This document shows positions 1,640-19,877 of a stretch of 64,000 nucleotides of DNA, one piece after another. The position numbers and the translations under genes were made by a program. Positions within the stretch are counted from its first letter, which is position 1. Each line of letters begins with the position of its first letter. The notes beneath the pieces are model-generated. The model made no database searches and was not told the origin of the DNA. It was given only the letters and a program-made list of their open reading frames with translations. The stretch is from Blastococcus saxobsidens DD2 (lineage in GTDB: Bacteria > Actinomycetota > Actinomycetes > Mycobacteriales > Geodermatophilaceae): the NCBI RefSeq assembly GCF_000284015.1, contig NC_016943.1:3823541-3887540 (forward strand). Direction: 5' to 3'.

Positions 1640-3337
1640 TCAGGTTGCGTCGGGTGCGGGATCGGCGGTGGGTTGGTCGGCGGCGTCGATGATCTGCCGC
1701 TCGATGTCGGCAAGGGTGTAGCCGCACGAGACCAGGAACCGCAGCCAGCGGGCGTCGCCGGCCCCGGGGTTGCGCCAGGACTGGCGATGCAGCCCGGACT
1801 CGATGGCCCCGGCGACGTGGGCCAGCAGCGCCACGCCCAGCCGGGCGTCGGGCACTCGTTCGCCACTGGTCAGCGTGAGCGACGGCTTGTCCCGGGTGGC
1901 CCACCACTGACCGGGGGCGTCGATGCCGAGGTCGGCGGCGGCGGCATTCTGGGCACGGTTGGGCTGCCCGGATAGCCACCGGGACAGCGCCCGGGGGTCG
2001 ATGGCCAGTGTCTCGACGGCGAACCGCAGCGCCCCCTTGGGCGCGGTCTTGCGCAGCAGCAGGCCCTTGATCCACTCCCGGCGGGTCTCGTTGGCCGCCG
2101 CCATCGCCTTGTTGTTGTCGATGGTGGCCCGCCGCCCGGCCGCGGCGGCCTCCCGCTCGGCCTCGCTGGGTTCCTCGGCTGCTGTACCGGCGGGCAGGGC
2201 GGTGGCCGTCCAGCGGTCACGGTGGCCGTTGCCGGCCGGGTCGGTGCACACCTCGACCGCCCGTGGCCCAGACCAGCCGGTCGTGCAGACGTAGACCGCC
2301 GCACCGGGGCACCCGGCGTGGCCGTCGGCGGTCAGCGGCTCGCCGTCGTGCTCAAGGTCGGCCAGCCGGGTGCGCGTGCGGCCGGTGTCCTCGTCCAGGA
2401 CGGTGCGCCCGGCGGCGGTCAACTCCGCCAGCAGGGCGGCGGCCTTCTCCGCTTCCTGCCTCGCCTGCTTGGCGCGGGTCAGTGCGTGGGCGAACCGCCC
2501 CGGCCCTTCCCCCGCTGCCGCGATGAGGGTCGCGGTGGTGTCGGGGTCATCGGCGTAGACGGCGACGGCGGCGGCCTGGTCCAGGGTCAGCCCGGCATCG
2601 GCGACCGCCGCGGCGGTGTCGCTGTCCAGCCGGGCCACACCGGCGGCCTTGGCGACCCGCTTGCGGGCCAGCCCGGTGGACTTGGCCACCCTGGTGAGGG
2701 ATACGCCGAGGTCGAGCATCGCCTGTACGCCGCGGGCCTCCTCCACCGCGGACAGGCCGCGGCGGTGCAGGTTCTCGGCCAGCATCGCGCCCACGTGTCC
2801 GGCCTGGGCGGCCCGGTCACCGTCGGCGGCGTCACGGTCGAGGGCGAGGTCGGGGCGCAGCACGCACGGCACCGAGGTGAGGCCGGCGAGGATCGCGGCG
2901 GCCGCCCGGCGGTGCCCGGCGACCAGCTGATGGCGCGGCGTGCCGTCGGCGGCGGCGTGCGGGATCACGGTGAGGGCCTCCAGCACGCCCTGGGCGGCGA
3001 TGGAGTCGGCCAGCCCGGACAGGTCGCCGAGGTCGTCGCGGATGTTGCGGGGGTGCACGGCCAGCCCTCGGGGGTCCAGCCACACCAGCCGGTGTGCCCG
3101 CCCGCTGTCCTCGGCCGTGTCGGCGCCTGCGCTGCCGGTGTCGGCCGGGTCGACGTGCTCGGCCTCGCGCTGCTCGCTCCCGGCACGCTGAGCGGTTCCG
3201 GTCGCGGAACCCTCGTCGGGCGTGCTCTCCCGGCCGGTGGTCAAGGCGGTGGCTGTAGTGGTCGTGGTCATGCCGGGTTCTCCTTCGATGCTCTGCGGGA
3301 TGGCGGTGCTCTCGGCGGGAGTGCTGGTGGCGGCCAT
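1640..3337 (-). CDS. ParB/Spo0J-family DNA-binding protein
   Basis: A 565-residue protein with a ParB-type nuclease/CTPase fold. The ParB N-terminal domain spans about residues 85-200, with the GERR-like motif GHRR at 141-144 and the conserved AENLHRRGLS at 187-196. A helix-turn-helix follows (about 205-235), then a long alanine-rich region and a C-terminal domain of unknown role. It is much longer than chromosomal ParB and resembles versions on actinobacterial plasmids and integrative elements. A second ATG at 3271 has a better ribosome site (AAGGAG) and may be the real start. It begins 18 bp after the ardC-like stop codon, so both were probably one operon before ardC was interrupted. No ParA partner is visible. 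Confidence 0.8.
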   Translation of the reverse strand: MAATSTPAESTAIPQSIEGEPGMTTTTTATALTTGRESTPDEGSATGTAQRAGSEQREAEHVDPADTGSAGADTAEDSGRAHRLVWLDPRGLAVHPRNIRDDLGDLSGLADSIAAQGVLEALTVIPHAAADGTPRHQLVAGHRRAAAAILAGLTSVPCVLRPDLALDRDAADGDRAAQAGHVGAMLAENLHRRGLSAVEEARGVQAMLDLGVSLTRVAKSTGLARKRVAKAAGVARLDSDTAAAVADAGLTLDQAAAVAVYADDPDTTATLIAAAGEGPGRFAHALTRAKQARQEAEKAAALLAELTAAGRTVLDEDTGRTRTRLADLEHDGEPLTADGHAGCPGAAVYVCTTGWSGPRAVEVCTDPAGNGHRDRWTATALPAGTAAEEPSEAEREAAAAGRRATIDNNKAMAAANETRREWIKGLLLRKTAPKGALRFAVETLAIDPRALSRWLSGQPNRAQNAAAADLGIDAPGQWWATRDKPSLTLTSGERVPDARLGVALLAHVAGAIESGLHRQSWRNPGAGDARWLRFLVSCGYTLADIERQIIDAADQPTADPAPDAT

Positions 3338-3355: not shown

Positions 3356-3688
3356 TCAGGCGGTGGCGAGGACGCGGGCGCCCCCGGGCTGCGCGGCCGA
3401 GCCGGCCGACCGGGCGTCGTCCCCGTCCCTCGGTGGGTTCTCGGCGCCGTCGAGGTGGTCGAGGATGCGGCGCGCGGCGGCGGTCACGGTCGTGGCGGCG
3501 GCGCGGACGACGGCGACGTCCCCGGCCGCCCAGGCAGCGACGTAGGGGACGGTGTAGGCGCCGGCGTCCAGCCCGGCCCAGGCGGTGACGATGTAGGCGA
3601 CCGACTCGGCTTCGGCCTCTGCCCGCCCGCGGCAGCCCCGGTAGTCATAGCCGTCGGCGGTGTGCCCGCACTCGATGTGCGCGAGTTC
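3356..3688 (-). pseudogene. 3' part of an interrupted ardC-like antirestriction gene
   Basis: This fragment encodes 110 residues from the second half of the zincin motif to the natural stop at 3356. It begins ELAHIECGH, continues to the EAESVAYIV helix that supplies the third zinc ligand in this family, and ends with the tail QPGGARVLATA. The first half lies at 7785-8555. Joining the two pieces gives KTLAHELAHIECGH with no frame change, so the gene was intact before the 4.1-kb insertion. The fragment has no start codon or ribosome site of its own. The parB-like gene follows 18 bp later and has lost its upstream promoter. Confidence 0.85.
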
Positions 3689-3928
3689 TTTTCCGCACCA
3701 AGATCGTTGTGTGCAGACGATCGCGGTGACCGGCCGGACCGGTGCAGCGCAGGGCGCACTAACGTGTTGACGTGGCGTCTTGGCTCCGAAGGGTTGGCCA
3801 GTACCTCGGCCTGATCTATCGCGATGACGGGACCTGGAAGATCGGTCGCGGCTACCCGAAGCCGCCGCGGAGCAGCCGTCGCTCGCGGCCCTCTCGCTAG
3901 GGACCGTTTCTCATCGTCGTCTCCGTAC

Positions 3929-6445
3929 TCATGGCGGTGTGATGGCCGCTGGGGTGGCTGGAATGGCGGGGAGGCCGAGGTCGGTGGTCGTTCGGCTGCG
4001 GCGCATCTGGGCGAGCTTCTGTTCGGCCGCGGCGAGGCTGGTCTCCAGGCCGTCGACCTCGCCGAGCCAGTCCTGATCCTTGGCCTCGGCCAGCCGGGCG
4101 TGGAGGTTGGCTCTGATCTCTTCCAGCCGGTGCTGCTGCGCGGGGTCGGGCCGCAGCATGGGGCAGCGGATGCAGGCGTGCTCGTGCTGGCAGGGGGTGC
4201 CGTAGGCGCGCCCGCAGACGCCGAGCTCGACCTTGCGCCGTTGGAAGTGGCCGAGGAACTCGTCCCATTCGGCGTCGGTCGGCTCGCGGTACTCCTCGCT
4301 GGGTCGCACCGCCCTGCGCCGGGCGAGGAAGCCGCGGTAGTGCTCGACGACGTCGGAGTCATAGACGGCGACGTAGATCTGGGTGGTGGCCAGCGTCTGG
4401 TGGCCGAGGATCTTCGCCGCGATGTGGATCGGCAGGCCGGCGGCGACGGCTTCGGTGGCGAAGAGCCGCCGGAAGTCGTGCGGGGAGAACCGCATGGGCG
4501 TGCCGTCGGGAGCGGTCAGCCCGGCGGCGGTGACCAGCCGGTCGAGCAGCACCCGCACGTAGTGGTGGGTCAGGCAGTGCGCCGAGGCGCCCCACCAGCG
4601 TTGGAACAGGAACGGCAGCGCGGAGCTGTGCACGCGTTCCATGTGGTCGTAGCGGGAGACCAGCGGGATCTGCTGGTGGCCGGCGCGCACTCGGGCGATC
4701 ACGGCGGCGAGCACGTCGGCCAGCTCGGGGCTGACCACGAGCAGCCGTTCCCGGTCGGTCTTCGATGGCACGATCTGCAGCAGCGGCACCACCTCGCCGG
4801 TGTCGGGCACGGTGTAGGCGACGAAGGCCCGGTGGGTGAGCTCGAGCATCTCCTCGATGCGCATCCCGGTGTGCCGGAGCACCTCGACGATGGCCCAGGT
4901 CCAGAACGCGTTGTCCTCGGCGAGGGTGAGGTTGCACCGCGGGCCGCCGTCGGGGTCGTCGACGTAGACGACGCCAGGTCGCCGGGTGCTGGCGGCGCGC
5001 TGGCCGGTCGCGACCGCCGAGCGCCGCCGCTGCACTCCGTCGAGGTCGAAGGTCTCGCCGGGAGCGACGGCGGAGGCGGCCTGTAGCAGCGCCGCCGCAG
5101 TCCGCCGACCGGTCTCGGCGGCGTCGACCAGCGCGGGCAGCCCCGAGGCCTGGGTGCGGGTGCGCTGGTGCATGCGGGCGGTGGTGCGGGTGCGCTGCTT
5201 GCCCATTCCGCGCAGGTCGTTGGCGCTGACCGGGTTGGGAGCGACCCACCGCCCCCAACGGAGCGGTTCCTCCAGCGCCCAGTGGGTCAGGTCGGCGTAG
5301 AACGCCCGCACCGCCATCAGGATCGCGTGCGGGTCCTCGCGGCGTTCCCCGATCCGGTGGTTGCCATAGCGGATCTCGCCCAGCCGGCTCTTCCAACCCC
5401 GCACCATCTGCTGGGACAGCTGGAACGAGTCGATGCCCGGTTCGTGGAGTTCCAGGTCGCGCCAGAACAGCAGCACCAGCTTGGTCGCCAGCTGGCGCAG
5501 CGAGGCGTAGTCCATGCCGGCCTGCCGCTCGTGCAGGTAGTCCACCAGCAGGTCGCGGACCGGACGGCACTCCACGTCGTAGCCGTCGACCAGCTCCTCC
5601 ACGGTCAGCTGCCCGCGTCGGCTGGCCGCCCAGATGCTCGGTGGGCTGCCCGGCGGCAGGATGCCGGCCCGCAGCAACAGCACGTACCAGTAGCTGTGCT
5701 GGCGCTGGCTGTATCCGGCCTGCGCCCGGTAGGCCTCCACGCAGTCGGCAAGGGTGACGTCAGCGAGCCGGCCGCCGTTGTGGATGAGGATGCGGGTCAG
5801 CTGACAGAAGGCCAGCCGCCGATCCGCCGGGGTCAACCGCGTGTCGTCCTCGGTGAACAGGGCGTCCAGCGCGGCGAACCCGTCCGGGTCGTGGCGGGCG
5901 CGGAACCGCTCCAGCACGCTGGCCGAGCGCAGCGCATACAGCCAGGCGTAGCTCGGCCGCAGCGCGCCGAGCACGATCAGCCGGCCGACCGCCCCGGTGA
6001 GCTGTGCGCGGCGGTCAGGGCCGGTCTGCAGCCCGTCGACGTCCACCAGGTCGGCCCAGTCGGAGCCGGCGGCGTCCGCGCCGCAGGCCTGCCAGCGCTG
6101 CTGCCAGGACCCGCCGGGAAAGGTCTGCAGCCAGTCCAGCAGCAGTCCGACCGCGGCGCGACGGCGGCGCCGCTCTTTGACCGGCACCCCACCGCCCAGC
6201 TCGTCCAGCGCGGCGAGGACCTCGCTGCGGCTGCGGGCGGTCTCCGGCCACACGCTCGGCCGCGCCAGGATCGGGGTCGGCAGCGTCGGCGTGCGGAAGT
6301 CGTGCTGCTCGGACGGCCGGCGGGCGGTGCGCGGGCCACGTCCGCGCGGCGCCGGCACCGCATCGACGTAACGGTCCGCCCCGGAATCGACGCCCTGCTC
6401 TACGAGCTCCTGACCGGACTGGCGGCCGGTGGTCTCAGCGCGCAT
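3929..6445 (-). CDS. Large tyrosine recombinase with C-terminal zinc-finger-like region
   Basis: An 838-residue site-specific recombinase. The catalytic residues of the family are all visible: Arg529 in HTGMRIEEML, Lys562 in PSKTDRER, His656 and Arg659 in SPHDFRR, His682 in LGHQ and the nucleophile Tyr691 in TTQIY. The first 500 residues are a long helical DNA-binding region. After the catalytic domain comes a cysteine/histidine cluster (GTPCQHEHACIRCPML) that could bind zinc, then a charged coiled coil. The ATG at 6445 overlaps the end of the upstream recombinase by 11 bp, so the two are translationally coupled. Its size recalls TnpB of Tn554-like elements more than a phage integrase. It probably acts with its partner to move the 4.1-kb element. 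Confidence 0.85.
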   Translation of the reverse strand: MRAETTGRQSGQELVEQGVDSGADRYVDAVPAPRGRGPRTARRPSEQHDFRTPTLPTPILARPSVWPETARSRSEVLAALDELGGGVPVKERRRRRAAVGLLLDWLQTFPGGSWQQRWQACGADAAGSDWADLVDVDGLQTGPDRRAQLTGAVGRLIVLGALRPSYAWLYALRSASVLERFRARHDPDGFAALDALFTEDDTRLTPADRRLAFCQLTRILIHNGGRLADVTLADCVEAYRAQAGYSQRQHSYWYVLLLRAGILPPGSPPSIWAASRRGQLTVEELVDGYDVECRPVRDLLVDYLHERQAGMDYASLRQLATKLVLLFWRDLELHEPGIDSFQLSQQMVRGWKSRLGEIRYGNHRIGERREDPHAILMAVRAFYADLTHWALEEPLRWGRWVAPNPVSANDLRGMGKQRTRTTARMHQRTRTQASGLPALVDAAETGRRTAAALLQAASAVAPGETFDLDGVQRRRSAVATGQRAASTRRPGVVYVDDPDGGPRCNLTLAEDNAFWTWAIVEVLRHTGMRIEEMLELTHRAFVAYTVPDTGEVVPLLQIVPSKTDRERLLVVSPELADVLAAVIARVRAGHQQIPLVSRYDHMERVHSSALPFLFQRWWGASAHCLTHHYVRVLLDRLVTAAGLTAPDGTPMRFSPHDFRRLFATEAVAAGLPIHIAAKILGHQTLATTQIYVAVYDSDVVEHYRGFLARRRAVRPSEEYREPTDAEWDEFLGHFQRRKVELGVCGRAYGTPCQHEHACIRCPMLRPDPAQQHRLEEIRANLHARLAEAKDQDWLGEVDGLETSLAAAEQKLAQMRRSRTTTDLGLPAIPATPAAITPP

Positions 6446-7643
6446 CGCGGGCCTGCCCGAGCAGCTCGCGCAGCGAGTCCGGGCGGTAGCCGCCCGACGG
6501 CGGCGCTGCCGGCTGCCGTGCCGGCCGGTCACCGCGCGCCCGGTGGTGCTCGAGCACCCGGGCGACCACCGCGTCCTCGCGTGGACGCAGGTAGATCTGC
6601 GTGGTGGCCAGCTGCGCGTGCCCGAGCACCCACTGCACGTCGGTCAGCGTCAGCCGCGGATCCTCGGCCATCCGGAAGGCCGCGGTGTGCCGCAGATCGT
6701 GCAGCGTCCAGCCGGTGCCCAGCTCCTCGTTGGCCCGCTGCAGCACCCGCCGCATCGCCGAATAGGTCAGCGGCCGGTGCGGTGCCCGGCGGGTCAGCCA
6801 CAACGCCTGCTGCCCGGCCGGCCGGTCCTGCCGCTGCTGATAGAGCCGTAGCCACACGAACGCGTCCGCCGACCCGGGCAGCCACTGCAGCCGACCGCTG
6901 CCCTTGCGATGCACCCCGATCCGCTGAGCGCCCACGTCGACCCGGTCCACGCTCACCCCGAGCAGCTCGCTGGCCCGGGCGCCGGTGCTGACGTAGAGGG
7001 CCAGCAGCGCCCGGTCCCGGTCACTGCGCATCGCCGCGAACAACGTGTCGAACAAGTGATCTGGCAGGCTGCGCGGCAGCCGGGCCGGCGTCTTCTGCCG
7101 CAGCGGCGCGCGGCGGTGCCGCTCCGGCGGCGCCATCGGATTGGCGTGCGCACCCACCCGCTGCCCGCCGCGGCCGACCGCCTCCGGCACCGGGTTGACC
7201 ACCGGACCGTCCCCGGCCGCCATCCGGTCGGCGTAGAAGCCGCGCAGCACCGCCAGGTTGTGGTTGATCGTCGCCGGCGCGTACCCGACCCGCTCTCCCA
7301 CCCGGCCGGCGCGCGTCGCGCCGCCGGCAGTCGTCGCGGCCAGCCGCATCCACAGCACGAAGTCGCGGGCCTCGACCCGACTCGCCCGCTGCCAGCCCAG
7401 CTCCACGGCCGCCAGAAACCGCCACCAGCGCAGCAGCGCGAGCGCGTAGGACCGCACGCTGCCGGTGGCAGCGCCGCTGGCCAGCAATGAGCACAGGTAG
7501 TCCGCGATCGCCGGCACCGGCACCCCCGCAGCGTCGAGCACCGCCACCCCGGGCAGCTCGTCGCTCACCCGGATCCCGCCAACCGCGGCCACCGTCAACC
7601 CCGTCACGTCCCGTGACGGATCACACTCCCCGGCCCTCGCCAC
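6435..7643 (-). CDS. Tyrosine recombinase, first gene of the pair
   Basis: A 402-residue XerC/D-like recombinase. A SAM-like core-binding domain (about residues 40-160) precedes the catalytic domain with Arg223 (TGARASELLG), Lys247, His315 and Arg318 (LHDLRH), His342 (LGHAQ) and Tyr351 (TTQIYLRP). The GTG at 7643 has a strong ribosome site (GGGGAGGAG) five bases before it and is chosen over an ATG at 7661. The frame stays open upstream through the element end into the ardC fragment, so a fused product of 706 residues starting at 8555 is also possible. It overlaps the second recombinase gene, with which it should form a heteromeric transposition machine. Confidence 0.85.
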   Translation of the reverse strand: MARAGECDPSRDVTGLTVAAVGGIRVSDELPGVAVLDAAGVPVPAIADYLCSLLASGAATGSVRSYALALLRWWRFLAAVELGWQRASRVEARDFVLWMRLAATTAGGATRAGRVGERVGYAPATINHNLAVLRGFYADRMAAGDGPVVNPVPEAVGRGGQRVGAHANPMAPPERHRRAPLRQKTPARLPRSLPDHLFDTLFAAMRSDRDRALLALYVSTGARASELLGVSVDRVDVGAQRIGVHRKGSGRLQWLPGSADAFVWLRLYQQRQDRPAGQQALWLTRRAPHRPLTYSAMRRVLQRANEELGTGWTLHDLRHTAAFRMAEDPRLTLTDVQWVLGHAQLATTQIYLRPREDAVVARVLEHHRARGDRPARQPAAPPSGGYRPDSLRELLGQARDAR

Positions 7644-7784
7644 AGCGGCTCCTCCCCACATCGGTGGAGAGAGCGCAGCAGCCAACCAGCCCGGATGATC
7701 GCAACCGAACCCGCGACGGCGAGTCCGCTGCGCGCGAACCGGCCGCGCACGCTCACCGACCCGGCTTGGTGCGGTCAATAGGTC

Positions 7785-8555
7785 GTGGGCGAGGGTCTTG
7801 ACCGCCTGGGCGTCGGCGACGTCCGGGCGGACCCGCACGGTGCGGGCGACCGGGTCGGTGAGGCCGTTGGCCTGCCCGCAGTCCTCGCGGCTGAGCGTGT
7901 AGCCGTGCGCGGCGACCTGGGCGGCCAGCGCCTGCCACAGGGCGGCGGGGGCGTCGCCGCACAACAGCTCGGGTGCGACGTCGGGCAGCGGGTCGCCCTC
8001 GGTTTGGGAGATGTCGAAGACGTGCGCGACGCGGAACCCGCGCAGCACCCGCCCCCGGGCCGGCCTGTCGGAGTCCCCGCCGGCCGGCTCCCCCGCCGTC
8101 CCCGTCGCTGTCGCGACCGCGGGCGCAGCCCGGTCGGTGCCCTCGCCGGTGCCGGTGCCGGTGTCGGCTCGGGTGTCCTTGGGGGTGTAGGTGCAGGGGG
8201 CCAGCACCGCGAGCCCGGTGGATCCCTTGACCACGCTGCGGCCCAGCGCCTTCCAGGTGCCGAACCCGGCGACCCGGGTCGGGTTGATGCCCAGCCGCGC
8301 GGCCTGCAGTGTGATCAGCAGCTGGTTGTTGAGGCTGTAGGTGTGGAACTTCGCGGCGGCATCGAGCATCGCCCGCCACTGCGGATCGGCGGTCAGCTGC
8401 TCGACGCGCTCGCCGATCTGCTCGTGCAGGGCGGTGATCTTCGCTGCCCGCGCGGCGTCGGCGGCTTCCGCCTGCGCGGCGCTGAGGTGGGCGCTCCTGC
8501 CCCGCTTGCCCTTGCCGGTGCGACTGCTGCTCGTTGCGCTTCTGGTGCTGGTCAT
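7785..8555 (-). pseudogene. 5' part of the interrupted ardC-like antirestriction gene
   Basis: The first 257 codons of an ArdC-type protein, starting at an ATG behind GGGAGG. The N-terminal ArdC single-strand DNA-binding domain is present, with family landmarks SLNNQLLITLQ, GINPTRVAGFGTWKALGRSV and VVKGSTGLAVLAPC. A low-complexity threonine/glycine linker follows, then FRVAHVFDISQTEG and VKTLAH, where the gene breaks. The remaining half of HELAH and the tail are at 3356-3688. ArdC proteins protect incoming DNA from restriction during conjugation. Translation from this start does not end at the break: it runs in frame into the first recombinase and stops at 6435. Confidence 0.85.
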
Positions 8556-11794: not shown

Positions 11795-13153
11795 TCAAGC
11801 TCCCGCAGGGACGTGGTCGCGGACCTCGGGTGGGACGTGGTCCCCGTGCACGTCGATGCGGTAGCGGAGGCCGTCCTCCGGTGTCGCGGCGATGGCACGG
11901 AGGGCCTCCCCGAGCGCTATGACGTCCCGGATCGAGGTGGCCCGGTTGGCGCTGGCGCGCACGGCTCCGGGCAACTGGCGGCGCCCGGCGCGGGCGTCCT
12001 GGTGGAAGCGCTCCACCTGCTTCTCGGTCAGGTCCAGCAGCCGGGCCATGTAGGGGTGGGCGCAGAAGCAGCCACTGCGCACGCCGATCCCGTACTCGGC
12101 CGACAGCCGGGCAGCCAGCAGTCCGTGCGGCACGCCTTCGAGGTTGAAAGCGGCGACCGGCAGCCGGTCCCCCGAGCTGGGTCCATAGCGCCGGAGCCCC
12201 GGGACCGTGCTCAGCTCGGCGTCCAGCGCCTCGGTCAGTACCCGCTCGTGGGCCAGCAGTCCGGGCCAGTCGCTCCGCAGCTCGTCGGCGGCAGCGGCCA
12301 GGGCGACGGCGCCGAGGACGTTGGGCGACCCGGCCTCGTCGCGGTCGGGGGCATCGGCCCAGACCACGTCGCCGAACGAGACCGCCCTGACCGCACCGCC
12401 GCCGGCGAGCAGCGGCTCGCCGTGGCGGAGGACATGTCGCGGCACGACCAGGGCCCCGGACCCGAAGGGCGCGTACATCTTGTGGCCGGAGAGGGCCAGG
12501 GCATCCACTCCGAGCGCCGTCATGTCGATGGGCCGGTGCGGTGCCAGCTGGGCCGCGTCGACCACCACGAACACACCCCGCTCCCGCGCGGCGGTGGCGA
12601 TCGCGGCGAGGTCGGGTACCCAGCCCGTGACGTTCGATGCCCCACTGACGGCCAGGACGCGCGGCGCGGGACTCCGGTCGAGTGCGGTCACGACCTGCTC
12701 CGGGGTGAAGGTCCCCCTGGAGTCGACGTCGACGACCCGCAGCCGCGCGTGCCGGCGCCACGGGAGGAGGTTGGCGTGGTGCTCGACGGCCGTGGTGACC
12801 ACCACGTCGTCGGGCCGTAGGTCCAGCCGGAAGGCCAGCGCGTTGAGCGCCTCGGTGGTGTTCCGGGTGAAGACCGCGACGTGCGAGCGCGGATCGGCCC
12901 CCACCAGACGCAGCACGCCCTCCCGTGCCTCCTCGTACCGGGCACTGGTGTAGCGGGACTTGGCGCCCGCGCCCCGGTGCACGCTGGAGTACCAGGGCAG
13001 CAGGTCCTGGACGGCCTGGACCACCCGGACGGAGGCGGAGCTGGTCGCGGCAGCGTCCAGGTCGACGTAGCGGGTCAACTGCCCACCGCGCGTCGGAACC
13101 TGGACGTCCTCACCGACGAGTCGGCCCGCGGTCATGTCGAATGCCGGTCGCAT
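11795..13153 (-). CDS. Class V aminotransferase / cysteine desulfurase-like enzyme
   Basis: A 452-residue PLP-dependent enzyme of the SufS/CsdA-like branch. The PLP-binding lysine is Lys225 in LALSGHKMYAPFG, preceded by the conserved VVVDAAQLAPHRPIDM strand that contacts the cofactor. RSGCFCAHP supplies Cys362, at the place of the persulfide-forming cysteine, plus a second cysteine two residues on. Length and motif order are normal, with HxN at TAVEHHANLLPWR. It stands alone, not beside suf genes, so the physiological substrate is uncertain. The start could be the ATG at 13153 or the one six codons later. It is the first chromosomal gene after the integrated element. Confidence 0.8.
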   Translation of the reverse strand: MRPAFDMTAGRLVGEDVQVPTRGGQLTRYVDLDAAATSSASVRVVQAVQDLLPWYSSVHRGAGAKSRYTSARYEEAREGVLRLVGADPRSHVAVFTRNTTEALNALAFRLDLRPDDVVVTTAVEHHANLLPWRRHARLRVVDVDSRGTFTPEQVVTALDRSPAPRVLAVSGASNVTGWVPDLAAIATAARERGVFVVVDAAQLAPHRPIDMTALGVDALALSGHKMYAPFGSGALVVPRHVLRHGEPLLAGGGAVRAVSFGDVVWADAPDRDEAGSPNVLGAVALAAAADELRSDWPGLLAHERVLTEALDAELSTVPGLRRYGPSSGDRLPVAAFNLEGVPHGLLAARLSAEYGIGVRSGCFCAHPYMARLLDLTEKQVERFHQDARAGRRQLPGAVRASANRATSIRDVIALGEALRAIAATPEDGLRYRIDVHGDHVPPEVRDHVPAGA

Positions 13154-13282
13154 GGTGATGCCATCGGCTGCGGATCGCGGTTACTCAAGCGCAACCCGGC
13201 GACCGGAACCTGTACCGACCCGTTGTGGTGATCTCCGGGCGGCAGGCTCAACGTGCTGCCCCCGGTTGACGAGGGACTGGGC

Positions 13283-15487
13283 ATGAGCCCGGTTCCGATC
13301 GAGATAAGCACCGTGCGCCGTCGTCGGCGCGGGTTCCGGCTGACGTCGCGCGTCTTCTGGGACCTGGCCGTCTGGATGATCGGACTCGGCATCGCCGTCG
13401 GGCTGGTGTTCCCGCCGTTCGCGACCGGCCTGGGCGTGCCCGCCGAGTACGCCGAGCGCCCGCTGTTCCAGGCGGCCTGCCTCGGCGCCGGCTTCCTCGT
13501 CGGCGCCCTCAGCTACGCGCTGTGCCGCTGCCTGGTCGGCGGCCGGCTGGCCGTGCTCAGCAGCCACCTGCGGTCGGTGGCTCAGGGCATCTCGCAGGCC
13601 AGCCGCACCGGCGACTGGGCACAGTCGACCTCCCAGCGCATCCGCGTGGACTCCGACGACCAGCTCGGGGAGACCGCCCAGGCCTTCAACAGCCTGCTCG
13701 ACGCACTCGAGGCGGGGGAACACTTCCGCTCACTCGTGCGCAACGCCTCCGACGTCATCACCGTCGTCGACCCCGCCGGCACGGTCACCTACCAGACCCC
13801 GTCGGTCGGCTGGGTGCTCGGCTACCCACCCGGGACGCTCATCGGCACCGACATCCACGCGCTCGTCCACCCCGAGGACGCCCGGACCTTCCGCGATCAG
13901 CTGGCCTCGGTCGTCCGTGGGCCGTCCCCGGCTCCTTGCCCCGCCGTCCGGATACGGCACCGCAACGGCTCCTGGCGGTGGACCGAGACCGTCGTCAACG
14001 ACCTCCTGGACGACCCCGCCGTCACCGGCGTCGTGCTCACCACCCGGGACGTCAGCGACCGCAGGGAGCTCGAGGAGCAACTGCGGACCCAGGCGTTCTA
14101 CGATCCGCTGACCGGCCTGCCGAACCGGGCTTTGTTCATGGACCGCCTGCGCGCCGCCGAGGAGCTCGAACGCGACACCGGTACCCCGGCTGCGGTGCTG
14201 TTCCTGGACCTGGACAACCTCAAGACGGTCAACGACACGCTCGGCCACGACGGCGGAGACGCACTCCTCGAGGTGGTGGCCCAGCGGGTCGGCGCCTGCC
14301 TGCGTCCGGGCGACACGCTCGCCCGCCTGGCCGGTGACGAGTTCGCCGTGCTCCTCGGCGGCCCGCAGAGCGGCGAGATGGCTCTTCGCGTGGCCGAGCG
14401 CATCCTCGGCGCGCTCCGCGAACCGGTACTCGTCGTCGACCGCATGGTCCGGGCCGGGCTCAGCATCGGCCTGGCCACGACCGCCACCGCCGGCGTCAGC
14501 GGCATCGGCCTGCTCCGCGCGGCCGACATCGCCATGTACGTGGCCAAGACCAGCGGCAAGGGTCGTTGCGAGGCGTTCCAGCCCAGTCACCACGCCGACC
14601 ACCTGGAGCGCGAACGTCTGCAGGCCGGCCTGTACCAGGCGCTGGAACGGCACGAGCTCGTCCTGCACTACCAGCCGATCGTCGACCTGGCCTCCCGTGA
14701 GATCAACGGCTACGAGGCGCTCGTGCGCTGGCAGCATCCGGAGCGGGGGCTGGTGCCGCCGGCGCAGTTCATCACCTTGGCCGAGGACAGCGGCCTCATC
14801 GTCCCGATCGGCCGGTGGATCCTCCGGGAGGCCACCCGTCAGGCCGCCGCCTGGCAGCGGATCGACGGCAGGGCACCCCGGATGAGTGTCAACGTGTCGG
14901 TGTGCCAGTTCCGGCACCCCGACCTCGTCGACGACGTCACCGAAGCACTGCGGGCCTCTGGCCTGGCACCGGACCGGCTGACCCTGGAGATCACCGAGTC
15001 GCTGTTCGCCCAGGACACCACCGGCACCACGCTCAAGCTCGAGCAGCTCAAGGCCCTCGGCGTCCGGCTCGCCCTCGACGACTTCGGGACGGGATACTCG
15101 TCGCTGAGCTACCTGCGGCGCTTCCCCATCGACATCCTCAAGATCGACAAGTCCTTCGTCGACGGCGTCGCCACGAGCTGCGAGGACCGAGCCGTCATCG
15201 GGGCGATCGTCGCGCTGGGGCAGACCCTGCACCTCGACCTCGTGGCCGAGGGCATCGAGACGGCCGAAGAGCTCGCCGCCCTGGAGGCGCTGGGCGTGCA
15301 GTCCGGGCAGGGCTACCACCTCGGGCGGCCCGCACCGCCGCAGTACGCCTCGCCCGGCGCAGAGCGCCGCCGGTCAGGCAGTCCGGGAACCGCGCTCCGG
15401 TCCGCACCCGCGCCCCGGGCGGCCACCGCGGCCTCCCCCGGGCAGGACGACCCTGTCCGGGAAGCTGCGTCACCCGGCCATTCCTAG
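13283..15487 (+). CDS. Membrane PAS-GGDEF-EAL cyclic-di-GMP protein
   Basis: A 734-residue signalling protein. Two transmembrane segments (residues about 25-85) are followed by a HAMP-like linker, a PAS domain (NASDVITVVDPAGTVTYQTPS), a GGDEF domain (YDPLTGLPNR; motif RLAGDEF, an accepted AGDEF variant) and an EAL domain (EALVRWQHPERG, LDDFGTGYSSL, KIDKSF, EGIET). Both synthesis and breakdown of c-di-GMP are possible, because the metal-binding and catalytic residues of EAL are present. The alanine/proline-rich tail after EAL (about 50 residues) looks disordered. The ATG at 13283 follows GAGGGA; a GTG ten codons upstream is less likely. No neighbouring effector gene is seen. Confidence 0.9.
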   Translation: MSPVPIEISTVRRRRRGFRLTSRVFWDLAVWMIGLGIAVGLVFPPFATGLGVPAEYAERPLFQAACLGAGFLVGALSYALCRCLVGGRLAVLSSHLRSVAQGISQASRTGDWAQSTSQRIRVDSDDQLGETAQAFNSLLDALEAGEHFRSLVRNASDVITVVDPAGTVTYQTPSVGWVLGYPPGTLIGTDIHALVHPEDARTFRDQLASVVRGPSPAPCPAVRIRHRNGSWRWTETVVNDLLDDPAVTGVVLTTRDVSDRRELEEQLRTQAFYDPLTGLPNRALFMDRLRAAEELERDTGTPAAVLFLDLDNLKTVNDTLGHDGGDALLEVVAQRVGACLRPGDTLARLAGDEFAVLLGGPQSGEMALRVAERILGALREPVLVVDRMVRAGLSIGLATTATAGVSGIGLLRAADIAMYVAKTSGKGRCEAFQPSHHADHLERERLQAGLYQALERHELVLHYQPIVDLASREINGYEALVRWQHPERGLVPPAQFITLAEDSGLIVPIGRWILREATRQAAAWQRIDGRAPRMSVNVSVCQFRHPDLVDDVTEALRASGLAPDRLTLEITESLFAQDTTGTTLKLEQLKALGVRLALDDFGTGYSSLSYLRRFPIDILKIDKSFVDGVATSCEDRAVIGAIVALGQTLHLDLVAEGIETAEELAALEALGVQSGQGYHLGRPAPPQYASPGAERRRSGSPGTALRSAPAPRAATAASPGQDDPVREAASPGHS

Positions 15488-15591
15488 GACAGACCGGATC
15501 ACCGCGTTGATCGATCGCGTCGAACGCCCAGCGTGACCGCCGCTCCGCCGGGGTTCCCGGCCAGCGGCGACGCGCGTAGCGTCGGCCAACT

Positions 15592-16008
15592 GTGAACTGG
15601 GTCACCATCGAGGTCTTCGACGGCGGCACGCCCGCCGCGGGGTGGCTGCGCGCCTGGCACGACCTGCTGGTCGAGACGGCGGTGACCTCCGGTGCCCGGT
15701 TCTGGGACGAGCACGAGCACCGGTGGGGGGTCGTCCTCGAGTTCGTCTTCGACGAGGAGACCCAGCGCGACGGCTTCCGCGACTCGGCCGCCGTGCGGGC
15801 GGCGCTGGACGCCGCTCCCGACCCGGTGAACGGCGTCCTGGTCTACCCGCACCGCGGTGGCGGCAGCGGCAGCCGCCAGCCTCGTCGTCCGCACCCGCGC
15901 GCCGGCGGGGGGACGGCGGCGCTGCCGGAGCCGGATCCGGATGCCGGCCGTGTGCTGCCGTGCACCGCCCCGGCCGAGCTCGCCGCCGAGGCGCCGCTCA
16001 GCTGGTGA
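15592..16008 (+). CDS. Unknown small actinobacterial protein
   Basis: A 138-residue protein with an ordered N-terminal two thirds (MNWVTIEVFDGG, then ARFWDEHEHRWGVVLEFVFDEE) and a proline/glycine-rich tail. The GTG start has no ribosome site, but TAGCGT ends 9 bp before it, which suggests a leaderless transcript. I do not recognise a family; the first 80 residues resemble a small alpha/beta fold. It converges with the SDR gene, overlapping it by 11 bp. Confidence 0.5.
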   Translation: MNWVTIEVFDGGTPAAGWLRAWHDLLVETAVTSGARFWDEHEHRWGVVLEFVFDEETQRDGFRDSAAVRAALDAAPDPVNGVLVYPHRGGGSGSRQPRRPHPRAGGGTAALPEPDPDAGRVLPCTAPAELAAEAPLSW

Positions 16009-16768
16009 GCATCCCGCCCTCGACCGGGATGGTGGTGCCGGTGACGTACCCGCCGGCGTCGCTGACAAGGAAGACGAGGGCGGCGGCGAGCTCCTCGGGC
16101 TCACCCTTGCGCCCGACGAGCACCCGGGACAGCTGCGACTCCAGGTACCCCTCGGGGTACTGGTCGGTCATCTCCGAGGTGAAGAAGCCCGGCGCCAGGG
16201 CGTTGACCCGGATGCCCTTGCGGCCGGTCCACTGCTGGGCGAGGTCGCGGGTCAGCCCGATCAGCCCCGCCTTGCTCGCCGCGTAGGCCGCCTGCGGCAG
16301 ACCCGCGGTGGTCAGGCCGAGGACGCTGGAGATGTTGACGATGGAGCTGCCCGGCTGCATCACCCGGCCGCAGGCCTGGGCCATCCAGTAGCAGCCGTTG
16401 AGGTTGACCTCGATGACCTGCCGGAACTGCTCGGGGGCCTCCCGCGTCGCCGGAGCGGCGGTGCCGACCCCGGCGTTGTTCACCAGGATGTCGACCTTGC
16501 CGAACTCCGCCATGGCGGCGTCGACGAGCGCCTGGCAGTCCTCGGGCTTCGACACGTCGGTGGCCACCGCGATCGCCCGCCGCCCGGCCGCCTCCACGGA
16601 CCGCTGGGTGTCGGCCAGCCGGTCGACCCGGCGGGCGCCCAGCACGACGTCGCAGCCGGCCTCGGCCAGCGTCCGGGCGAAGACCGCGCCGAGCCCGGAG
16701 GACGCGCCGGTCACGACGGCGACGCGGTCGTCGAGGCGGAAGAGGTCGAGGATCGGGCGGTCGGGCAT
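15998..16768 (-). CDS. Short-chain dehydrogenase/reductase
   Basis: A 256-residue classical SDR. The cofactor motif is TGASSGLG near residue 20, NNAG marks the central strand, and the catalytic set is Ser in NISSVLG with YAASK supplying Tyr and Lys. An arginine shortly after the first strand (GARRVDRL) suggests NADP(H). The closing segment GGYVTGTTIPVEGG is typical. The ATG at 16768 has GAGGAG upstream and is chosen over a longer unconserved start. It is divergent from the acyl-CoA ligase and PHA synthase genes, so a 3-hydroxyacyl substrate such as in acetoacetyl-CoA reduction is plausible but unproven. Confidence 0.88.
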   Translation of the reverse strand: MPDRPILDLFRLDDRVAVVTGASSGLGAVFARTLAEAGCDVVLGARRVDRLADTQRSVEAAGRRAIAVATDVSKPEDCQALVDAAMAEFGKVDILVNNAGVGTAAPATREAPEQFRQVIEVNLNGCYWMAQACGRVMQPGSSIVNISSVLGLTTAGLPQAAYAASKAGLIGLTRDLAQQWTGRKGIRVNALAPGFFTSEMTDQYPEGYLESQLSRVLVGRKGEPEELAAALVFLVSDAGGYVTGTTIPVEGGMLTS

Positions 16769-16889
16769 GAGCGGGGATCTCCTCGCAGACGGTGGGCGGT
16801 CCCGCCACCGTATCCGCCCTGTGCGGTAGATCACCGGTCGAGCCGGGTAGGGGCTGCCAGTCCAGCTCAGGGCACAGGGAGGACCACGC

Positions 16890-18392
16890 ATGACCAACCT
16901 CGCGCAGAACCTGCTCGATTCGGCCGCCGAGCGAGAGAGCCGCCCCGCCTTGCGGATGGACGACGCCGTGCTGACCTACGGCGAGTTCCGGGACGCCGCG
17001 CTGCGGGTCGCCGCGGCACTGCAGGGCCGTGGCGTGCGACCCGGTGACCGCGTGGGCCTGGTGCTGCCCAACGTGCTGGCGTTCCCGGTCGTCCTCTACG
17101 GCGCCCTGCTCGCCGGGGCCGCCGTCGTCCCCATGAACCCGCTGCTCAAGGCGCGGGAGGTGCAGTACTACCTGGAGGACTCCGGGGCACGGGTCGTCGT
17201 CACCCTCGGGTCCACCGCCGAGCCGGTGCGCGAGGCGGCCGGCACGGTCGGCGTCGAGGCCGTGGTGGTGGGGCCGGCGTCCCCGTCCGAGCTGATGGCC
17301 GACGAGCCGCTGGCCGAGCCGGTCGAGCGGTCCGACGAGGACCTCGCGGTGATCCTCTACACCTCGGGCACGACCGGGCAGCCGAAGGGCGCCGAGCTCA
17401 CCCACGCCAACCTGGGCCGCAACGCCGTGACCACGGCCGACACCCTCGCCGAGAACACCCCCGACGACGTGATCATGGGCTGCCTGCCGCTGTTCCACGT
17501 CTTCGGGCTGACCTGCGGCCTCAACACCGCCGTCCTGCGGGGCTCGCTGCTCACGCTCATCCCCCGGTTCGACGGCGGCAAGGCGCTGGAGGTCATCGAA
17601 CGCGACCGGGTGACCATCTTCGAGGGCGTCCCGACGATGTTCGCGGCGATGCTGCACCAGCCCGACGCCGACCGGCACGACGTGTCGAGCCTGCGGCTGT
17701 GCGTCTCCGGCGGGTCGGCCATGCCGGTGGAGATCATGCGGTCGTTCGAGGAGCGGTTCGGCTGCATCATCCTCGAGGGCTACGGCCTGTCGGAGACCTC
17801 GCCGGTCGCCTCCTTCAACCACCCGCACGCCGCGCGGAAGCCGGGCTCCATCGGCACCCCGATCCGCGGCGTGGAGATGCGACTGGTCGACGACGAGGGC
17901 GAGGACGTCGGTCCGGGCGAGGTCGGCGAGATCGCCATCCGCGGCGAGAACGTCATGACGGGCTACTGGCAGCGCGACGAGGAGACGGCCAAGGCGATCC
18001 CCGACGGCTGGTTCCGCACCGGCGACCTGGCCCGGAAGGACGACGACGGCTACTTCTTCATCGTCGACCGCAAGAAGGAGATGATCATCCGCGGCGGCTA
18101 CAACGTGTACCCGCGGGAGATCGAGGAAGCCCTCTACGAGCACCCGGCGGTGGCCGAGGTGGCGGTGATCGGCATCTCGCACCCCGACCTGGGTGAAGAG
18201 GTGGCCGCGGCGGTCGCGCTGAAGCCGGGGGCCGGCGCCGAGGTCGAGGAGCTCCGCGAGTTCGTCAAGTCGCGGGTGGCCGCCTACAAGTACCCGCGGC
18301 ACCTGTGGCTGGTGGACACCCTGCCCAAGGGGCCGACGGGGAAGATCCTGCGACGGTCGGTGGAGGTTCCCCAGGAGGTGGGGACCCGATGA
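16890..18392 (+). CDS. Acyl-CoA synthetase (AMP-forming fatty acid CoA ligase)
   Basis: A 500-residue member of the ANL superfamily. Motifs are in order: the phosphate loop [11 protein letters not shown] (about residue 155), GYGLSETSP (about 295), the [24 protein letters not shown] hinge in parts (about 370-395), [12 protein letters not shown] and the catalytic lysine near the end in [11 protein letters not shown]. It activates a carboxylic acid to its CoA thioester through an acyl-adenylate. The ATG follows GGGAGGA. The next gene overlaps it by 4 bp (ATGA), and a PHA synthase follows, so it may feed acyl-CoA precursors into polyhydroxyalkanoate or lipid synthesis. Confidence 0.9.
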
Positions 18393-18847
18393 CCCAGCAG
18401 CCGGCCCCCCGCACACCACCACCGTCGCCACCGCTGTGGCGGCAGGCCTTCGACGCCGCCGAACGGGCCGTGGCACCCCACGCGGAGAGCCTGGTCCGCT
18501 CGGAGCACTTCGCCCTCGGCACCGCTCTGGTGCGCCGGGCGCAGACCCTCGCGGGCCGCTCGGTGCAGGGCCTCAGCGCCCGCGCCTGGCACCTGCTCAA
18601 CCTGCCCGCGGGCAGCGACATCAGCCGGCTGCGCGCGCAGATCGGCTCCCTGGACCGGGAGGTCCGCCGGCTGACCCTGCAACTGGAGTCCGAGCGGCGA
18701 CGGGCCTCGGCCCCCGCGCGCACCCGGCCCCCCGAGACGACGACACCCGCGACCACGGAGGACGACGATGCCGACGGTGCCCAGCCCGCAGACGGTGCTC
18801 GACCGCGTCCGGCGAGACGTCGAGCGCAACGCTCTACGGGCGCGTAA
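18389..18847 (+). CDS. Putative PHA synthase partner protein (PhaE/PhaR-like position)
   Basis: A 152-residue protein starting at an ATG that overlaps the ligase stop. It has a helical N-terminal half, a predicted coiled coil around [20 protein letters not shown] and a proline/threonine/arginine-rich tail. The last 80 bp overlap the start of phaC in another frame. Class III PHA synthases need a second subunit (PhaE) that is helical with a C-terminal coiled coil. Position and shape suggest such a partner or a phasin, but no sequence signature confirms it. Confidence 0.55.
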
Positions 18848-19877
18848 CGGGATCAAGCTTGCGGCGGGCGTCGACCGCCCCGGCGTCGGGCAGACCCCCA
18901 AGGACGTCGTCTGGCAGCGCGGCCGCACCCAGCTGTGGCACTACCGCAACGACGACGTGCGCTACGGGCCGCCGCTGCTGCTGGTGTTCAGCCTGATCAG
19001 CCGGAGCTACATCCTCGACCTCACGCCGGGCAACAGCTTCGTGGAGCAGCTGCTCGATGCGGGATTCGACGTGTACATGCTCGACTGGGGCGAACCCGAC
19101 GAGCGGGACGCGGAGAACCGGCTCGAGGACTACGTCGACGACTACATCCCGGCCGGGATCGACCGGGTCCTGGAGCTGTCCGGTGCCGACGAGGTGAACC
19201 TGTTCGGCTACTGCTTCGGCGGCGACCTCGCGCTGCTCTACGCCGCGCACCATCCCGACGCCCCGCTGCGCAGCCTGACCGTGCTGGCGACGCCGGTCGA
19301 CTTCCAGCACATGGGCCCGCTCGCCGACATCTTCAGCGTCGGCGGCATGGACGTCGGCTCGGTCCTCGGCCCCGACGGCAACGTGCCGCCGTCGGTCGTC
19401 GTCCAGGGGTTCCGGACCCTGACCCCGACCGCCGAGGTGACCCGGTACGTGACGCTCTGGGAACGGCTCTGGAGCGACGAGTACGTCGCCTCCTACCAGG
19501 CCATGACCGGCTGGTCGGACGACCACGTGCCGTTCCCCGGCGCGGCTGCCCGGGAGACCGCGGAGATGCTGGTGCGGAACAACGGGATGGTCAACGACCG
19601 GCTCACCGTGGGCGGCGACCGGGTGCACCTCTCCGACATCCAGGTGCCGTTCCTGACCGTGCGGGCCAACCGCGACCACATCGTCCCGCCGGACGCGACC
19701 GCGCCGCTGATCGACCTGATCGGTTCCCCCGACAAGCACGAGCTGTGCCTCGACGCCGGCCACATGGGGCTGGTCGTCGGACGCACCGCGGCGAAAACGA
19801 CGGTGCCGACCATCATCGACTTCATCCGGCGGCGCAGCGACGCACTGGATGCCGACGACGCGAGAGAAGAGGCCTGA
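18768..19877 (+). CDS. phaC: Class III polyhydroxyalkanoate synthase
   Basis: A 369-residue alpha/beta-hydrolase-type PHA synthase. Its length fits class III PhaC (about 350-370), not class I (about 600). The synthase box is GYCFGG with nucleophile Cys149; Asp303 (NRDHIV) and His332 (AGHMGL) complete the triad. The conserved tryptophan motif DWGEP is present at YMLDWGEPD. It polymerises 3-hydroxyacyl-CoA into granules. It is the third gene of an operon with an acyl-CoA ligase and a coiled-coil protein, and a GNAT gene follows directly. The start lies inside the preceding gene, an unusually long overlap. Confidence 0.9.
   Translation: MPTVPSPQTVLDRVRRDVERNALRARNGIKLAAGVDRPGVGQTPKDVVWQRGRTQLWHYRNDDVRYGPPLLLVFSLISRSYILDLTPGNSFVEQLLDAGFDVYMLDWGEPDERDAENRLEDYVDDYIPAGIDRVLELSGADEVNLFGYCFGGDLALLYAAHHPDAPLRSLTVLATPVDFQHMGPLADIFSVGGMDVGSVLGPDGNVPPSVVVQGFRTLTPTAEVTRYVTLWERLWSDEYVASYQAMTGWSDDHVPFPGAAARETAEMLVRNNGMVNDRLTVGGDRVHLSDIQVPFLTVRANRDHIVPPDATAPLIDLIGSPDKHELCLDAGHMGLVVGRTAAKTTVPTIIDFIRRRSDALDADDAREEA

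Follow-up and report, generated by a model that had tools for sequence, protein, structure and literature searches.

A stretch of 64,000 nucleotides from Blastococcus saxobsidens DD2 (contig NC_016943.1, positions 3,823,541 to 3,887,540; below, the window) holds an ardC gene, of the type encoding antirestriction proteins, that is split by an element carrying two tyrosine recombinase genes, R1 and R2. The split falls between the His and Glu codons of the HELAH zincin motif, which raises the question whether the element landed there by accident or whether its recombinases seek out these codons. A preliminary description of the sequence had proposed that they target this conserved coding sequence and so let the element ride from one mobile element to another. 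Our analysis indicates that it is very probably a site-specific actinobacterial Tn554-related transposon that targets CAC|GA (the bar marks the insertion point), mostly as the zincin His-Glu codons of ArdC.

The element spans 3689..7784 (4096 bp) on the minus strand, as do all window features given below unless another strand is named; GA is present at both sides, and the coordinates are correct within the resulting ambiguity of 2 nt. The 5′ part of ardC (7785..8555), 257 aa ending in KTLAH, matches ArdcN (PF08401) with 44.7 bits (E 1.8e-11). The 3′ part (3356..3688), 110 aa (3359-3688) and a stop, begins ELAHIECGH and gave no match when searched alone against Pfam; like the joined frame, it can be aligned to intact ArdC proteins over a region that includes HExxH and EAESVA (the glutamate helix). 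Joining position 7785 to 3688 by script gave a single open frame of 257+110 = 367 aa, reproducing the split HELAH and the restored frame first noticed in the preliminary description. Three intact ArdC-type proteins, L164, L165 and L166 from other actinomycete plasmids, were examined as empty sites in related genes, and all three are unbroken there (KTMIHELGH, LTLAHEVGH and KTILHEAAH). Because these relatives read straight through, the two parts come from one gene, and the possibility that they stem from different genes does not hold.

The event was repeated within the same genome. A search with ArdcN found three genes, every one interrupted at the His-Glu codons, and a search with R2 found three full copies, each beside an ArdcN gene, plus one weak unrelated match. 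The other two copies (the three are called A, B and C below) are the same element at the same ardC codon, and position and orientation are identical in all three. Along 4095 bp, the elements show differences of 0, 1 and 1 nt. Outside them, identity in the 100-column flank bins adjoining the element is 86-93% on the upstream side and 91-93% on the downstream side, with values that vary between bins farther out, and longer alignments of the ardC flanks are 84-89% identical. Because the elements are near-identical while the ardC flanks differ by about 10-15%, we read them as three separate and recent insertions rather than one that was duplicated; gene conversion confined exactly to the element is less likely. 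Insertion produced no target duplication, only 2 nt being shared, and was in the sense orientation (3/3 own copies, and 10/11 readable rows, at zincin His-Glu codons, of the clade described next).

Relatives were collected by a scan of genome contigs, which gave 151 R2 relatives, the best 80 of them kept, and from 273 plasmid records. In a tree of 96 rows, built by a quick method, the window element belongs to a 13-row clade with a Shimodaira-Hasegawa-like approximate likelihood ratio test (SH-aLRT) value of 100; besides the window the rows are L004, L007, L008, L009, L010, L011, L012, L043, L057, L067, L078 and L153. Members of this clade are rare among the whole genomes sampled. In the order of the host an R2 relative at E 1e-60 occurs in 7 of 121 genomes, above 46% identity in its own genome only, and in the genus of L010 in 7 of 128 genomes, two of them (G144 and G170) above 55% identity. 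The target could be read in eleven clade rows, and in ten it is the zincin His-Glu codons. Eight of these targets are ArdC-type (window, L007 through contig stretch L175, L009, L010, L011, L012, L043 and L078). The 5′ parts of L175, L012, L009, L010, L011 and L078 match ArdcN above the cut-off (6/6), and L043 is classed from its 3′ part alone (ELAHVLLH...EVEAESVAY). The other two, L004 and L153, interrupt M48 peptidase genes at the same His-Glu codons, with matches to PF01435 above the cut-off from profile position 72 on. The recurrence of this joint in three own genes and in other genera is far beyond chance. Thus the proposed targeting of a conserved coding sequence stood (3/3 own ArdcN genes and 8/11 readable clade rows), while ardC as the sole target did not, since M48 and DUF222-like genes are hit as well; these cases rule out both "only ardC" and "only HExxH" as target rules. 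Two further pairs resemble the own copies: the elements of L004 (plasmid pCHL) and L153 agree at 99.5-99.9%, their flanks at 83% and 76%, and the elements of L010 and L011 are 90% identical over 3.8 kb (plus an end piece of 85%) between flanks of 69-75%. In L078 (position 14940) the interrupted ArdC reads ELAY, not ELAH, after the joint, and R2 was matched in three pieces, a pattern as expected of decay after insertion.

What the recombinases recognize is best seen at the joints. The element ends in 14-bp arms, the left one TTGACCGCACCAAG (7765..7778) and the right one (3689..3702) its inverted repeat at 12/14 positions; within them lies the perfect 10-bp inverted repeat CCGCACCAAG (7774-7765 on the minus strand and 3693-3702 on the plus strand), at the places where the preliminary description had put it. 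Outside the left arm, on the R1 side, is the hexamer GACCTA (7779..7784), which is retained by the element, and beyond the right arm lies the host hexamer GAACTC (3683..3688), the Glu-Leu codons of HELAH, which varies between own copies. Left flanks in the clade end in CAC in 12/12 joints read and host spacers begin with GAR in 12/12; counted by lineage, the only invariant columns are CAC (10/10 left) and GA (9/9 right). The first right-end motif contained GA, and the search was repeated without it: 8 of 9 loci then had exactly one right arm 3′ of R2, followed by GAG or GAA, and for L012 no right arm was found. On the left, A, B, C, L004, L153 and L011 all carry GACCTA, and the remaining clade elements read there have GANNNG. 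The right hexamer belongs to the host, and among the own copies it reads GAACTC, GAGCTC and GAACTG; if the left one were taken for host sequence instead, the motif would become HDLAH, without its catalytic Glu. The same rule emerges outside the clade. In genome G179, from the same genus as L010, three DUF4192 genes (L159-L161) are each interrupted at the LGFxP codons by an identical copy of 4848 bp, and the flanks of one copy can hardly be aligned with those of the others. Their left hexamer is GCCATG throughout, while the right hexamers GCTTGA, GCTTGA and GCAGGA restore LGFKP, LGFKP and LGFLP; the left one would give LGSWP. Among 18 lineages that do not belong to the clade, 10 have left and right hexamers starting with the same two bases. 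Shuffles gave 2.61, and 0 of 10000 reached the observed value; the count includes five lineages without a frame across the joint or with an unsure right end. CTnDOT is an example of tyrosine recombination that needs homology only beside the first cleavage, and the hexamer pattern looks like recombination of this kind. The element thus seems to keep its own left hexamer and to leave the host hexamer on the right. This is the reverse of the rule printed for Tn554 and for the elements called SEs, where the host hexamer stands on the tnpA/intA side and the donor's moves to the far side (PMC10214605, PMC3261861; all papers cited here are quoted from excerpts), a comparison in which the ends are matched by gene order.

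The wider recombinase family was surveyed through its ends. Left ends, sought with at most 4 mismatches to one 13-base motif, were found at 63 of 83 loci and not at the other 20, and both ends were used for 29 loci, with the second of two right-end candidates chosen for L033. Lineages outside the clade use other targets, and most of those that could be named are coding sequences: a Mutator-family transposase (L006), transposases with a Mu-type C-terminal domain (L014 and L036), which we take to be IS21-like, a DDE transposase with a Pfam score below the cut-off (L026), a subtilase (L033), DUF4192 (L038, L159-L161), DprA (L042 and L051) and the uracil-DNA glycosylase superfamily (L059 and L085). 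Hence homologous recombinase pairs do occur at unrelated sequences in the family at large, which the preliminary description would have counted against its proposal; within the window clade they do not. A Pfam search gave no name for L013, L073 and the Arthrobacter target (L040, L044), and L016, L020, L021, L069 and L071, also among the 29 loci, had no convincing frame at the target. Several loci deserve mention in their own right. L042 and L051 belong to separate lineages and lie within about two codons of each other in the RF..RNR motif of dprA, in opposite orientations relative to the gene. L066 is inserted in an R1-type recombinase gene, and L180 (1460-1520) in a CxHEH zinc-like motif of another R2-type gene. 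A motif comparable to the L180 target, IRCPML, appears in the left flanks of L005 and L017 when they are translated in antisense (these flanks were read by eye, as was that of L180). Genome G328 has four R2 copies of equal score and 47% identity (contigs C43, C45, C49 and C55); no ends were recognized there, and a contig end cuts off three of the four stretches. For the G040 copies L156 and L157 no left end was found.

Could the three own copies descend from a single insertion into an ancestral ardC, before the three islands diverged, and have been homogenized since by gene conversion? The islands are homologous, and the copies are alike in position and orientation, as such a history would have it. 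However, identity drops from 99.98-100% to 86-93% directly at both ends in all three pairs, and conversion would need to have ended at identical bases on every occasion; L004 and L153 show the same pattern, as does the trio of identical 4848-bp elements in DUF4192 genes, where one copy has hardly alignable flanks. We therefore consider this history unlikely. A sampling effect was also considered, namely that the element inserts widely and that only hits in dispensable genes such as ardC remain visible. The family does include many targets that are probably dispensable, for example transposases, but dispensability does not explain why one dinucleotide of one codon pair is hit in diverged ardC and M48 genes (12/12 left and 12/12 right joints), and this account is hardly credible. 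It is very improbable, too, that we are looking at the decayed integrase pair of a larger integrative and conjugative element or prophage that lost its cargo. Some relatives are indeed longer (11.1 kb in L010 and 7.2 kb in L004), but minimal forms have only the two genes, with tails of 21 and 30 bp in L007 and L008, and in the window both genes are intact, three fresh copies exist and the element has no room for more. Two other candidates of this sort were dropped. For a tRNA-anchored integrative element, no tRNA was found in the window or in three 20-kb stretches. A phage integrase pair was not supported, as a search of the phage collection brought up 2 records from Listeria with 23% identity and the viral contigs gave 30 pattern matches, 0 of them confirmed.

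A site-specific transposon aimed at CAC|GA thus accounts best for the joints, and several observations weigh against taking it as simply a zincin-seeking element. L008 sits at CAC|GAGCGC in a DUF222-like gene (23.7 bits, below the cut-off of 24.4), not in an HExxH motif; because this site is CAC|GA outside HExxH, the enzymes appear to recognize DNA and not the protein motif. Two VAHELGH-coding sites in the own genome are empty, so CACGAR with the following GSSCAC is not sufficient and more than these bases is needed. The conserved columns of the joints do not divide between a preference of the recombinases and conservation of the protein. The sample also has its gaps: L057 and L067 have no readable target (their ends were looked for and none found), L043 was read on the right only, L012 and L007 practically on the left only, and L012 and L078 come from one metagenome-assembled genome. 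The circular junction and transposition itself are deduced from sequence.

The element itself is compact. R1 (6435..7661, start picked by inspection) is a short tyrosine recombinase, and R2 (3929..6445) a long one of 838 aa; by position and size they are like TnpA and TnpB of Tn554, respectively. They are adjacent and in the same direction, the ATG of R2 overlapping the stop of R1, and each matches PF00589 (Phage_integrase) above the curated cut-off. The residues R232 K256 H324xxR327 H351 Y360 of R1 (numbering of alignment A2) and R529 K562 H656xxR659 H682 Y691 of R2 (alignment A1) are invariant in 4/4 aligned sequences; their catalytic roles are presumed from the tyrosine recombinase fold. 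Both recombinases are intact. The remaining tail (3689..3928, 240 bp) has no conserved gene and no tnpC, and only 21 bp (L007) and 30 bp (L008) follow R2 in the shortest relatives. A plus-strand open reading frame of 42 codons in the tail (3772-3900) was tried as a third gene and rejected, because blastn comparison of ten clade tails found similarity within the pairs L004/L153 and L010/L011 only. In L010, the Nocardioides carbamazepini element, about 7 kb of cargo (12400-19700) lies between R2 and the right end. On the other side of the window element, the 5′ ardC frame stays open into R1 (7661-7785), making a one-frame ArdC-N/R1 fusion possible; in L009 and L010 there are stops between the two. 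Since the ardC frame runs on into R1, R1 may be transcribed from the ardC promoter.

How does the element compare with known systems? Van Houdt et al. (2012, PMC3414803) described actinobacterial Tn554-related transposons with Famint36/41 recombinase pairs and no TnpC: a short recombinase of about 350 aa, a long one of 611-828 aa (838 aa here) and identical multi-copy cases. Plasmid pRHL2 (NC_008270), given as this type in their Table 2, matches the window element by blastn with 69.0% identity over 44% of its length. By these sequence similarities the element is a member of this class. The excerpts of that paper name no targets, only the possibility of several similar attB sites, whereas the present analysis defines ends as well as targets and places one clade at HExxH. 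Like Tn554, the element has a short and then a long recombinase, a fixed conserved coding target, a fixed orientation and no target duplication; Tn554 leaves no target repeat (PMC3261861), and Tn554/Tn6188 kin keep a fixed point in radC even at 45% RadC protein identity (PMC3788773). Unlike Tn554, it lacks tnpC and targets ardC, M48 and DUF222-like genes instead of radC, and its tnpA-side hexamer is fixed while the far-side hexamer is the host's. For Tn554 the far-side hexamer derives from the target occupied before, and the radC hexamer is found in the circle (PMC3261861). The sources differ on this circle, which was not evaluated according to PMC10214605 and was detected by PCR according to PMC3261861; the former terms the transposition route of Tn554 unresolved. 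SEs differ in carrying Tfp and Srap and the target hexamer at attL (PMC10214605), while the present element has two genes only, neither of these. Adjacent overlapping tyrosine recombinases are shared with RIT elements, which have three of them and 34-bp terminal repeats (PMC10214605), compared with two here. ArdC of R388 (PMC7213743) has in common with the split gene the N-domain, HExxH and EAESVA. Among the matches listed from the titles and abstract openings of the open-access PMC literature, there was no such element in ardC. The radC site of Tn554 may also lie near a metal-binding motif, because Tn6188 is inserted at radC bp 540/541 (PMC3788773) and E. coli YicR has an HNHP motif at codon 171 (a comparison of codon numbers).

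From these observations a mechanism can be proposed. R1 and R2 would pair the circular junction (right arm, GACCTA, left arm), or paired ends, with a CAC|GA target. Exchange would begin at the CAC|GA boundary, with a match needed only over the first 2-3 bases of a 6-bp spacer, and insertion would be in sense, the element's own hexamer staying left and the host hexamer being left behind at the right end. Because the codons of HExxH hardly vary, diverged ardC genes would keep the site, and a newly met ardC would nearly always offer a landing place. Because ArdC is carried by transferable elements, such elements could bring the transposon into new cells and to further ardC copies. The cost to the carrier may be small: the E229A mutant of R388 ArdC, changed in the third metal ligand, still supported conjugation (PMC7213743), and by analogy loss of the protease may cost little. 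A broader reading, which we offer tentatively and regard as rather doubtful when taken as a whole, is that the family evolves by switching between conserved active-site or core motifs, comparable to the active sites that inteins occupy, and that the present clade has become a specialist for one of them, the zincin motif in an antirestriction gene which is carried by transferable elements and which they need in the recipient. Sense insertion behind the ardC promoter would then switch the recombinases on at cell entry, as fresh ardC targets arrive, and the left hexamer would be kept, a polarity not printed for Tn554 or SEs in the excerpts cited. It is well supported that a known recombinase class has here a newly defined target logic, in which one clade uses the zincin codons of ardC as its main att site. 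For a widespread actinobacterial class described in 2012 without targets in the excerpts of PMC3414803, this defines the ends, the targets and a rule for the hexamers. More generally, a DNA recombinase can gain a durable cross-species target from codons that selection on a protein active site holds constant, and in the present case most of these codons belong to a gene that other mobile elements carry. With its reversal, the hexamer rule offers a direct and testable handle on the transposition route of Tn554, and the smallest forms, with two genes and a short conserved core, would be convenient for studies of two-recombinase integration.

The host islands speak only in part to the suggestion that the element rides between mobile elements. 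In the window there is a parB-ardC module only, with a ParB-like gene (1640..3337) 3′ of ardC; no relaxase was found in the 20 open reading frames scanned (19 of the 145 of at least 150 aa in the three own loci, and one of the window), which were ParB, HTH, transposase-type and ordinary genes. L009 likewise has a ParB-type gene. Support comes from the context of the M48 pair: on pCHL (L004), which PLSDB types as non-mobilizable, a gene with a TraM-recognition domain lies near the insertion, and L153 adjoins a TrwC-type relaxase and a TraG/TraD-type protein. Riding on conjugative elements is thus plausible from the gene neighbourhoods.

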